From positions 41,966,597 to 42,030,596 of the forward strand of contig CM055099.1 of assembly GCA_029204225.1 (NCBI GenBank): a stretch of 64,000 nt of DNA, written 5' to 3'. The notes below the pieces were generated by a model that was not told the origin of the DNA, searched no databases, and saw only the letters and a list, made by a program, of their open reading frames with translations. The first letter of the stretch is position 1; every line of letters starts with the position of its first letter. Positions 14,421 to 23,196 of this stretch are shown in pieces. This DNA comes from Diphasiastrum complanatum (taxonomy: Eukaryota; Streptophyta; Lycopodiopsida; Lycopodiales; Lycopodiaceae). The position numbers and the translations under genes were made by a program.

Positions 14421-14456
14421 ATTAAGGCCCTTTTTGGACTCAAAAAGGGCCTCTTC
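14421..14456 (+). repeat. Left terminal inverted repeat with internal hairpin
   Basis: Begins ATTAAGGCCC and ends GGCCTCTTC. The only mismatch to the right end is A against G at the fifth base. Because the repeat is itself palindromic, one strand could fold at each end. Confidence 0.85.
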
Positions 14457-14760
14457 ACTAATTATAATTAGTGTTAATGACGACACGTGTCCCAATAAAA
14501 CATTGACAATTGAGAGGGAATGGTCCATATGACATGGCAAATTCAATGGTGCAGATTAAATCAAGTGTGGGCCCACAAAGTACACCTCTAACATTAACCC
14601 TAGATAAAGCAATAACTATGCCTACAAGTTAACATCAACTAGCATGTCTATCTACTAGCAGCCTTATCCTAAGTGAGCCTAGTCCTTATTTCAAATTTTG
14701 AATGTTCACAAGCTTGTATCTCTCATCTCTCTCTCATTTTGTAGTCTCTCTCTAAACGAC

Positions 14761-14869
14761 CTCTCTCTCTCTCTCTCTCTCTCTCTCTCTCTCTCTCTCT
14801 CTCTCTCTCTCTCTCTCTCTCTCTCTCTCTCTCTCTCTCTCTCTCTCTCTCTCTCTCTCTCTCTCTCTC
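14761..14869. repeat. (CT)n microsatellite inside the DNA transposon
   Basis: About 54 CT units, 105 bp upstream of the BAH gene start. It could be pyrimidine-rich leader sequence for that gene. Confidence 0.95.
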
Positions 14870-14974
14870 ATTCTGTATACTCCACAGTTATTCTATTTTT
14901 TTTATTTTGGTTCACCTTATCTGAAGATCTACACACTATTTCGCATATCCTACATTATCATTACATCATCCATT

Positions 14975-19850: not shown

Positions 19851-20115
19851 TGTTATGCAACTAAGAACACTAATTGACCAGCAAACTAGTAGTCTAATTG
19901 AACAAGACAAGCTAAATTACGAGGAAACAAATTTCAACAAAGCAAGAAGTGACAACAAAATGAAAACCCCCACTCTTATATAGAGGGACGTGTATCCAAA
20001 AATAGATATTATTATAAAATCAAATAAAATAATTTCTATTTATAACAACAATCCAATTCGGCAGTAATATTTATCACAAAGGAATATTCGAACTACAATT
20101 CAACATAAATTGTTT
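19851..20115 (-). promoter_or_regulatory. Probable promoter of the unknown minus-strand gene
   Basis: On the minus strand CTATATAAGAGTGGGGG (near 19985-19970) is a good TATA-type motif about 130 bp upstream of the ATG at 19850. The spacer also holds the 3' flank of the transposase-like gene. Confidence 0.4.
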
Positions 20116-22837
20116 CTATTTCATCTCATCAGTTTCCGTAGTTTCTCTAGCGTTGTTTTTCAAAACATTGGATGTTGGTGTCCTCGGCATCCATCTCTTT
20201 CCAACTCGGACTCTAGACATCCTCCATTCTTGATGCCTTGTTCTAGCATTAGAGGATTGCCATGCTGTCTTTATGACTGAATTTGAATTGGAGATCATTG
20301 AACACAACTCTTCAGTTCTTGTGTTTTGAAAGTGTCCTCGGCCCAAAACTCCTCTGTAATACCATTGGAATATCTCAACCAATGCATTGCTAAGATCCTT
20401 TCCTCTGCCATGCCGTGAATTTTTGAAATACGTAGCCTTTGCCCTGTAATGACTCTTTTCCATGCCTTGCGTATTCCAAATAGCTAATGATCCATAGGTT
20501 TTCATAAACCAAGGTCCATGAGCATAGAAGATGTGCTGTTCATAGAAAATTTGTATTAGTTTAAATCTTTACAAATACATAAATATGAAAGTAAAAAATA
20601 TGAGACACACATACCATATAGTGAGTTATGTGTGTTTCTCCCCATGCATCGATCATCAATTCAGTAAATGTTTTGACTTCTCTTGCGTATCTATCCAAAT
20701 CTTCATCTCTCACAATCTTTTTGTTGATAGTTTGTGACAAGGCATCAAATGCTTGCCAAACCTTAGCACGTGTACTTGCCATGCGAGGATCTGAGCCAAT
20801 ATTTGTTGTGCATTGACATATTTTCTTCCAGTACTTCCATTCAACACTGCTTTCACGTGCAGTATGATTTGACAATAGGTGTCTCGCTTTTGCACCACCC
20901 ATTGAAACTTTTGCTAGAACATCTTGCGTTTTTCCACTCATCTCAACGTCTTTGGTAAGACTGACGTGGCCCCCATGCAATCCCATATCGGATAAAATTA
21001 TCTCTAGATTTCTAATGCTAACATATGCTCTTGATTTGGGCTGCATATTCCATGCGTAACAACAATGCAAAAATAATAATTTGTCCAGTATTCGTAATTC
21101 ACCATGCATTGTGCAAAAATGGACTCTTTCGAGAGGAATGTTCAGCACAGGACTCCAAGCTTTGTCTAGATTGTGCCTATTTGGTGCAAGACGTTGGTTG
21201 CAATTCAAAATACTTCTGTTCCGCCCAGATTCAAACATACAATATATACAAAAATTCTTTGCATTTGCACCGAGACCACAACCGTACATGCATTTCAAAG
21301 TTTTCAAATCAGCAGCTAGGTGTCATTCTACAGCAAAGCTTTCTCCTTCAACATTGAGCAATTTGCCTTCATTTTGTGCATGTATTATCTTAGATATACT
21401 ACATTTTTCAAATAGCCACTCCAATACGTCGTGAGACTCCTTAGGAACTTCAAATGCAGCTATCCACCATATGTGATTTTCGGATTGCACGCTAAATTCT
21501 TTACAATAACTTCCGCCAAACTGTTGCAATTCATGATTCATCAAGGTGATTGTGACACGTTCAAGTTTATGCCCTTTTACGATTTCTGCTTCGTCCAACT
21601 TAATAACAAATATAACTTTACCTCCGCAATCTGTAAAACAGAAATTTCATTACTGAAACATATTAGTTGAAGAAAAGCATACAATTGAAAACCGAAATTC
21701 ACAATAGATGTTCTTACCATTTGTTCTAACTTCGTAATGTCGGGTCATCATCACTTGGACCTTTTCTAAAAATATATTATTGCCTTGATGATAACAAAAA
21801 CATGTCGGAGGTCCTTTCTTCTTATTGGTTACTGTAAAAGAATCCTTGATATGTTGAAACTCTCCTAATTCAGAGAGCAATATCGAATTGCATTCTCGTT
21901 TGGCGGATTCGACAAGTTTATAAGTAGGTATTATTTGATGGCGTTTTAACCCATTTTTGTCAAAGCGTTTCATATACTTCTTCAAAGCTCTATACCCCTT
22001 GCGACTCACACCTCCTTGGTCACATGTGTACACCATCTCTTTAACATTTGGATTTGGCTTGAACTTGTCGACTAGCTTTTTTGCAATTCTCAAGCGAATT
22101 GAATCACTTGTTTCATCTTCAACAATCTTAATCAAATCTTTACCGTTCAAAAAATGTTTCATATATTTTTCAGCAATAAAATCTTTTCCAACCGTCTTTT
22201 TCAAGAACTCTTTTGTGTCCCTCATACGTCTTTTACTGGCACCACCACTTGGTGCCAAAGCTTCTAGTTTGTGTCTCTTAGTGTTTTCATTTTCTGCTTG
22301 CTGATCCATCGAGACTCTACGCTTTCGTTGTAAGCCATATATTGTCCTCTGAAATATACTGATTGAAGATTGCAATTCTTCAATTTTTGCGACAGAACTG
22401 GCAAGCTCTATTTTCAAACCATTTATCTCCTGCTCCAATTTTATTCCATGCAATGACTTTAAATTGTCATTCATACTCAATATATGAATGTTTGCCGTAT
22501 TTGCCAATGTCTCAGCTTGAATTCTTCGAGAATCCATTGCTTGACAATAGCCAAGCAGTCCATTCCGGCCATCCCCAATGAACCTTAACAAACTACATAC
22601 ATCAGAAAATTTAAGAGGAGCATCTACCAATGGATTATGAGGGTATAAATCACCTCTTACCCATACGTCAATATGTTTTTTTCCTTCTAATCTCCAACAA
22701 TGCGTGTCATACGGATTTAAGTTAACACCCCATGCAGCTTTGGTGGTCGCATAATCCTTCTCTATCTTCACATGTAAGTGATACTTGGTTGTCATCTTGA
22801 AGATGTCGAATTTTCCAATAGAATCTATGTAGAACAT
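20116..22837 (-). CDS. Transposase-like protein, three exons, one Trp-to-stop change
   Basis: Exons 22837-21718, 21630-20615 and 20535-20116 have GT/AG borders (ATG/GTAAGA, TTACAG/AT, ATG/GTATGT, GAACAG/CAC) and total 2556 bp, 852 codons, in phase. In order: YHLHVKIEKD; HIDVWVRGDLYPHNP; LLRFIGDGRNGLLGYCQ; a coiled coil (about residues 150-195); basic RKRR; DQGGVSRKGYRAL; DCGGKVIFVIKLDEAE; NHIWWIAAFEV; a CxYC-type pair (CIYCMF); VHFCTMHGELRILDKLLFL; VEWKYWKKICQCTTNIG; HGPWFMKTYGSLAIWNTQGM followed by EKSHYRAKATYFKNSRHGRG; and a basic tail. The Cys/His pairs, LH...DKLL block and N.QG.EK.H block recall large KDZ-like transposases, but no family or catalytic triad can be fixed by eye. TGA at 21323-21325 sits where the related copy at 2585-3177 has Trp, so the stop is recent. 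It is the best candidate for the mobility gene of the 14421-23196 element. Confidence 0.65.
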
Positions 22838-23160
22838 TACAATATACCTTAATCAAATGGTGTCAAAGTTCAATGTGAACTAACCATGATATAAGCTTTA
22901 TTAGGCATATACTAGTTTCCATCCCTAGGGTCCTATTGTAGTTAGGACAATGAAAGGTCGGCCTATACTAACCCTACTCTAGTTGTAATTTGTAACTTAC
23001 CTATTAGTTGCCTATTATAGTCTATGCAAATAACCTACAATAGTCTATAAAAATGAGTCCTACATTTAGGCCTTAACTCTTGCTCACCTTGTATGGTAAC
23101 CCAAGGTAAAGGTGCCACGTAGGATTGATTAATTATGATTAGAAAACTTGTTTAGGCAAG
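22838..23160 (-). promoter_or_regulatory. Upstream region of the transposase-like gene
   Basis: Non-coding. It contains short repeats of CTATTATAG/CTATTGTAG and TTAGGCCTA-type motifs. It runs from the gene start to the right terminal repeat and presumably holds the promoter. Confidence 0.4.
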
Positions 23161-23196
23161 GAAGAGGCCCTTTTTGAGTCCAAAAAGGGCCCTAAT
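23161..23196 (-). repeat. Right terminal inverted repeat with internal hairpin
   Basis: Reverse complement of 14421-14456 with one mismatch; ends GGGCCCTAAT. The inner base TCTTC end is shared, after which similarity with the left end stops. Confidence 0.85.

Follow-up and report, generated by a model that had tools for sequence, protein, structure and literature searches.

DNA transposons carrying genes for histone H3-like proteins are already known from fungi (PMC3538342, PMC6710886, as far as the available text of each goes). A hAT transposon of Pyrenophora tritici-repentis has an H3-like gene (H3L) between its terminal inverted repeats (TIRs), and insertions occur in the H3L tails, with an effect that the accessible part of the report leaves undetermined (PMC3538342). 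Pseudocercospora fijiensis and its relatives have a TIR transposon of about 9.5 kb, also hAT-type, with 20-bp TIRs and an 8-bp duplication; according to the available sections of the source, its H3 was captured from a host gene, and all copies but the original were inactivated by repeat-induced point mutation (PMC6710886). The combination of histone gene and transposon is real in these fungi, and in the accessible text of neither source is a function for it demonstrated (PMC3538342, PMC6710886). Here we describe an 8.8 kb element in the lycopod Diphasiastrum complanatum, within a 64 kb stretch of contig CM055099.1 (38.5% GC) that was analysed as a whole and is referred to as the window. The reading we favour, with modest confidence, is that it represents an old, inactive copy of a cut-and-paste DNA transposon with a RAG1-type transposase and an H3 variant that had a role of its own.

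The Pyrenophora element, as described in the accessible part of its report, is fungal, about 5.6 kb long and encodes a hAT transposase, whereas the lycopod element has no hAT domain by Pfam search, a RAG1-like transposase, four genes, and a histone tail in which everything after residue 8 is replaced. What sets it apart from these precedents is its host group, its type of transposase, a tail cut to the tip and a convergent layout of four genes. Searches of an open-access library, several of them narrow, turned up no histone-bearing transposon of a plant. If intact copies exist, the finding would place a RAG1-type transposase in a plant, and H3 would have been recruited by cut-and-paste transposons at least twice (fungal hAT and plant).

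The RAG-like, ProtoRAG and Transib elements of animals have in common with the lycopod element the RAG1-type catalytic and zinc residues and convergent genes between TIRs, so far as the available text describes them (PMC7204232, PMC8355894). The RAG system, too, has a link to the H3 tail through the PHD finger of RAG2, which binds H3K4me3 according to the accessible part of PMC8355894, whereas the lycopod element carries the H3 tip itself and shows no reader. It also differs from RAG-like and Transib elements at its ends, where there is no CAC heptamer and no 5-bp duplication, and no kelch RAG2-like gene was found (Pfam, genes 1-3).

Elements of the PIF/Harbinger type make 3-bp TWA duplications beside GG(G)CC ends. 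The lycopod element may have an offset TAA / GGCCC, or TA, which would resemble this and is not clean, and its transposase gene has no Pfam match to Harbinger transposases. Chromodomain retrotransposons (chromoviruses) are likewise mobile elements with a chromatin-related domain; they differ in having the chromodomain fused to the integrase, for targeting, and in carrying no histone.

Ends and Organisation of the Element

The element is bounded by inverted ends and has four genes of its own, two per strand. A sequence-only reading of the window had proposed a DNA transposon that encodes a transposase-like protein and an H3-like histone, enclosed by 36-bp inverted ends and with two genes from each side converging on a palindromic array. 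This proposal is supported, with ends of 37 nt. The features are as follows.

14420-14456, plus strand: left TIR, 37 nt, itself nearly palindromic; 36 of 37 nt are complementary to 23161-23197
14975-16057, plus strand: gene 1 (a BAH-domain gene in the sequence-only reading); exon 1 14975-15287, an intron at 15288-15385, and exon 2, which starts at 15386 and runs into an in-frame TGA at 16057
16619-16849, plus strand: gene 2 tail frame, MSEA-MARTKQTARDPRV..., with MARTK at 16631; ends at TAG 16850
17164-17760, plus strand: gene 2 linker (lysine- and proline-rich) and H3 histone fold, in another frame than the tail
18017-18250, no strand: array of inverted repeats (3.3 units, each about 70 bp), a 234-bp hairpin array between the converging gene pairs
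18383-19836, minus strand: gene 3, no known family and no significant Pfam match; start and intron placement provisional
20116-22795, minus strand: gene 4, putative RAG1-like DDE transposase; exons 22795-21718, 21630-20615 and 20535-20116 (including the final stop)
23161-23197, minus strand: right TIR, pairing with the left end with one mismatch in 37

The ends read CATTA(A/G)GGCCC, and each holds GGCCCTTTTTGGACTCAAAAAGGGCC, which is almost its own reverse complement, so that each end can also fold upon itself. The sequence-only reading makes no mention of this near-palindrome. A minus-strand self-comparison of the window (matches of at least 25 nt and at least 93%, more than 1 kb apart) gave 167 rows, of which 165 were GA/TC microsatellites; the other two were the element ends and a 27-nt pair at 2118/4600, next to a fragment of a chromodomain-type retroelement, which we read as retroelement debris. 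When offsets 0 to 8 were scanned, no clean target-site duplication bordered the 37-nt ends on their outer side, the best 5-bp comparison over these nine offsets matching at 2 of 5 bases. A candidate short duplication, TA, or TAA if the ends are offset by one base, lies just inside the repeat and is not clean. Between 14000 and 23700, besides the ends and the array, there is no inverted pair longer than 21 nt and no direct repeat longer than 37 nt.

About 555 bp separate the left end from the ATG of gene 1, and about 400 bp the right end from that of gene 4; the two gene pairs converge on the array. The predicted RNA fold of 18010-18255 has an energy of -193 kcal/mol, against -90 (standard deviation 5) in shuffled sequences (z -20; none of 200 shuffles was as good), and the array may terminate both transcription units or yield double-stranded RNA. 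It carries TTGACC repeats that resemble the W-box.

The copy is dead, since genes 1, 2 and 4 hold in-frame stops and gene 2 shifts frame. The stops are TGA 16057 in gene 1, TAG 16850 and TAG 17161 in gene 2, where the frame also changes between about 16978 and 17030, and a single TGA at 21323-21325 in gene 4. The genes had been described as open frames, a description that these lesions correct for genes 1, 2 and 4.

Gene 4 Resembles RAG1

Gene 4 has 837 codons before the final stop in the spliced model and 851 if counted from an ATG 14 codons upstream, in agreement with the spliced, 851-codon transposase-like gene proposed from sequence. Its introns are of the GT-AG type and 87 and 79 nt long. 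In mouse RAG1, the catalytic residues are D600, D708 and E962, and the zinc ligands C727/C730 and H937/H942, as given in the accessible part of PMC4914335. Both sets have counterparts in gene 4, where residues D372, D467, C487, C490, H699, H704 and E724 are spaced by 95, 20, 3, 209, 5 and 20, compared with 108, 19, 3, 207, 5 and 20 in RAG1 (600-708-727-730-937-942-962); DDE and C2/H2 zinc residues are thus present at RAG1 spacing. The counterparts of H937, H942 and E962 come from a phmmer alignment, while those of D600, D708 and the cysteines were placed by eye. C487/C490 is the only C..C pair in the protein. Among 100,000 single-residue shuffles of gene 4, with tolerances set after the match was seen, the C..C/H....H/E part turned up at such spacing in 32 cases and the complete pattern in none.

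The idea that gene 4 is related to RAG1 was set down before the first search of the PDB. A phmmer search of that database with a 416-residue stretch, which starts shortly before D372 and ends past E724, returned 12 sequences at E ≤10, all of them RAG1 (best E 0.21); these constructs are closely related, so they are in effect one match rather than independent ones. The alignment starts at residue 904 of the 1040-residue RAG1 chain 9jpu_A, and this places the Glu at E962 and the His residues at H937/H942. With a 109-residue piece, trimmed after the first RAG1 match had been seen, 15 of 17 PDB matches were RAG1 (best E 0.054), and the Pfam RAG1 profile PF12940 aligned at positions 530-618 of 653 with E 0.0021 and 16.7 bits, below the cut-off of 25 bits. 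By its sequence, gene 4 is well supported as a RAG1-like transposase. The term RAG1-type expresses likeness, not membership, because parts of the zinc motif are common to other transposase superfamilies. Two other assignments were rejected by profile test only: Pfam gave neither a hAT family or dimerisation domain nor a Harbinger transposase family for gene 4.

A relative of gene 4 is found outside the element.

1306-3395, both strands: broken, rearranged relative of gene 4, seen as tblastn pieces

It was detected when the element's proteins were compared with the rest of the window by tblastn (E up to 1). The main pieces are 2532-2639, 2719-2835 and 2882-3112 on the plus strand and 3237-3395 on the minus strand (30-52% identity, E 1e-10 to 1e-12); a weaker piece at 1306-1545 on the minus strand has an E of 0.42 only, and two further matches to gene 4 (E 0.43 and 0.77) look like chance. 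Both the C..C pair and the Asp interpreted as D708 survive in these pieces. Genes 2 and 3 gave no match outside the element in this comparison. The relative makes gene 4 a member of a diverged repeat family; it does not establish that the four genes move as a unit. The plus-strand pieces lie between two similar stretches, at about 2503-2540 and 3172-3210.

Gene 2 Combines an Exact H3 Tip with a Diverged Fold

The frame at 17164-17760 matches the Pfam core histone family PF00125 with E 2.9e-27 and H3 chains in the PDB with E 2.9e-25, and an ARTKQTAR tail starts at 16631, so that the H3-like protein proposed by the sequence-only reading is confirmed. From T45 of H3 onwards, 48 of 89 residues of the fold (54%) are identical to H3.1. 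The kept residues include K56, R69, R83, E105, D106, C110, H113, K115, R116, V117, T118, K122, D123, L126 and R128, and the changed ones include R63 (to P) and K79 (to F). In H3, residues H113, R116 and D123 belong to the H3-H3 contact, and R63 and K115-T118 lie at the DNA.

The tail frame contains an exact MARTKQTAR from 16631, beginning at the second ATG, whose start context looks better by eye. The stretch that opens with MARTK and runs to the first stop comprises 73 residues, in which K4 is the sole lysine. Residue 9 is Asp, and the ARKS site at K9 is not present in the tail frame. That MARTKQTAR is exact next to a fold with just 54% identity suggests that the tip was under constraint.

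No single intact reading frame was found for gene 2, in which two stops and a frame change lie between tail and fold. The gap between them has a GC content of 0.53, compared with 0.54-0.56 in the rest of gene 2 and 0.22-0.34 in the element's proposed introns. The gap is read as broken coding sequence because this value is exon-like, not intron-like, and tail and fold probably once formed one reading frame. Alternatively, a candidate intron at 16849-17177 would join them in frame to give a protein of 266 aa. The linker before the fold comprises 108 residues and is proline-rich, with lysines that include those of KNPRKTGST. A K9-like remnant in the linker was considered and rejected: its alignment to H3 residues 9-44 was equalled or beaten by 1394 of 2000 linker shuffles, and because shuffles score as high, no K9-K27 remnant can be claimed there.

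Genes 1 and 3

Gene 1 had been described as encoding a BAH-domain protein. By eye, its order of motifs (a WVY strand, W-x-G-R-I and a late G-K-x-x-V) could suit a BAH domain. Up to E 10, Pfam matched no BAH domain in either the spliced protein or a trimmed 109-aa core (HMMER filters drop most matches above about 0.1), no BAH chain was matched in the PDB, and the assignment was not retained. The fold model of exon 1 (mean predicted local distance difference test score, pLDDT, 45) was too poor to yield a usable match. The reading frame stays open past TGA 16057 up to a GTGAGT donor at 16168, and the C-terminal part read across the stop gave a PB1-like match that is not significant (E 0.11).

A further reason for not calling gene 1 a BAH gene is that the same stretch resembles a copia integrase: residues 32-80 are identical at 15 of 49 positions to the integrase frame at 44473-45603 (E 7.8e-4 when the rest of the window is searched, 1e-6 in a single comparison). 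Pfam has no integrase profile match in gene 1, and the likeness may be due to chance or to a borrowed piece. The element had been said to hold no retroelement gene; this agrees with the Pfam searches, which found no retroelement family in its 10 frames (E up to 1), and is qualified by the integrase-like residues of gene 1. A 54-copy CT microsatellite (14761-14869) lies just upstream of the gene, and GA/TC tracts recur across the window.

Gene 3 has no significant match in Pfam, the best being Dark_WHD (E 0.071). RAG-like transposons have a RAG2-like kelch gene placed tail-to-tail; neither kelch nor PHD domains were matched by Pfam in genes 1-3, and genes 1 and 3 match no recognised family. Of the 'chromatin toolkit' seen by the sequence-only reading, one chromatin protein stands, the H3-like one; the BAH domain has no support from searches, and no domain is recognised in gene 1 or gene 3.

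Proposed Mechanism and Competing Explanations

The ends, the gene order, the histone fold, the tail tip and the breakage are direct observations, and that a transposon supplied its own chromatin would be an interpretation of them. In the mechanism proposed, the RAG1-type DDE transposase of gene 4 would bind the 37-bp palindromic ends, excise the element and reinsert it. The H3 variant of gene 2 would have kept the K4-bearing tip and the H3-H3 contact residues, with Asp at position 9 and a long linker in place of the rest of the tail. It would be deposited with H4 in nucleosomes at or near the element, as is suggested by the kept H3-H3 contact residues. Such nucleosomes could be methylated at K4 and not at position 9 (a plant silencing mark), which would favour an open chromatin state in which the transposase is expressed or gains access. 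This part of the proposal, deposition and a counteraction of silencing, is tentative and rather unlikely taken alone; the lysines of the linker weigh slightly against it.

By analogy with RAG2, which reads H3K4me3 for RAG1, a still more speculative version can be formulated, to which we give little credence: plants may host a family of RAG1-type transposons that supply a K4-tipped H3, whose nucleosomes could be marked as active and not silenced at position 9, and whose tip would be read by another element protein or by the transposase complex. If true, RAG-type recombination and H3K4 would be linked in plants as well as in animals. The finding poses the question of whether a transposon is able to provide chromatin for itself. 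If intact copies exist, they would represent a transposon-borne histone with a stripped tail, splitting K4 from K9 signalling, and would offer a direct test of whether a mobile element resists silencing by supplying its own nucleosome.

Several observations weigh against the favoured reading. At the ends, the CAC heptamer and the 5-bp duplication of the RAG/Transib type are missing, and the window shows no other copy that shares its ends or genes, the evidence base being one broken copy plus the fragment of a second gene 4. For gene 4, the RAG1 matches are individually weak and in part come from the piece trimmed after the event, and two of the three catalytic residues (those for D600 and D708) were placed by eye only. 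The whole protein has no RAG1 match in Pfam, a profile of exon 2 has none in the PDB, and the 109-aa piece has none in NCBIfam; the fold model of exon 2 (mean pLDDT 42) is uninformative. For gene 2, tail and fold lie in separate frames, so that the protein is reconstructed from a broken gene, the linker contains lysines, and R63 and K79 are changed.

The main rival is passive capture, in which a host H3 gene, perhaps with others, was acquired by transduplication and carried as cargo without a role in the life cycle of the element. Capture has been published for H3 in hAT transposons of several fungi, as reported in the available sections of PMC6710886. The H3 gene is broken in the lycopod copy too, and the possible copia-integrase-like piece in gene 1 would fit an element that collects sequences. 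Genes 1 and 4 are broken as well, however, which points to an old copy rather than to useless cargo, and the gene retains an exact MARTKQTAR together with the H3-H3 contact residues even though just 48 of 89 fold residues are identical. Passive capture is possible in our view, on the unlikely side. The reading with a role for the H3 variant is preferred to it.

A second alternative is that gene 2 encoded a free H3-like decoy, with a tip that occupies the host's readers or writers of H3K4, or a protein that competes for H3 chaperones. The part of the tail that is kept coincides with the tip to which many K4 readers bind, and a long proline- and lysine-rich linker precedes the fold. The fold would be dispensable in a decoy, but its H3-H3 contact and loop 2 residues are kept, and we regard this alternative as improbable. 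It is just as improbable that the ends derive from a short element and enclose by chance genes brought in by nested insertions or neighbouring genes, for although no clean target-site duplication is present and retroelements are densely nested all around, the repeat search of 14000-23700 found neither long terminal repeats (LTRs) nor second ends, the layout is tidily convergent, and the outermost genes start close to both ends.

Surroundings of the Element

The element is surrounded by copia-type retroelements, represented by gag (12630-13313), integrase (44473-45603) and reverse transcriptase (60297-61172) sequences. One copia element with LTR-like repeats at 9188-9527 and 13702-14056 ends about 364 bp to the left of the transposon. 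Two copia-type copies, at 42163-45694 and 56615-60169, are 94.7% identical over 3.5 kb. Inverted pieces at 2118-4617 have the appearance of a chromodomain-type retroelement end, and a chromodomain fragment is found at 3901-4314 (E 2.7e-05; 24.4 bits, just below the cut-off of 25.1). A frame-broken, pectate lyase-like remnant occupies 7611-8240 (PF00544, E 1.9e-06, 7818-8237).

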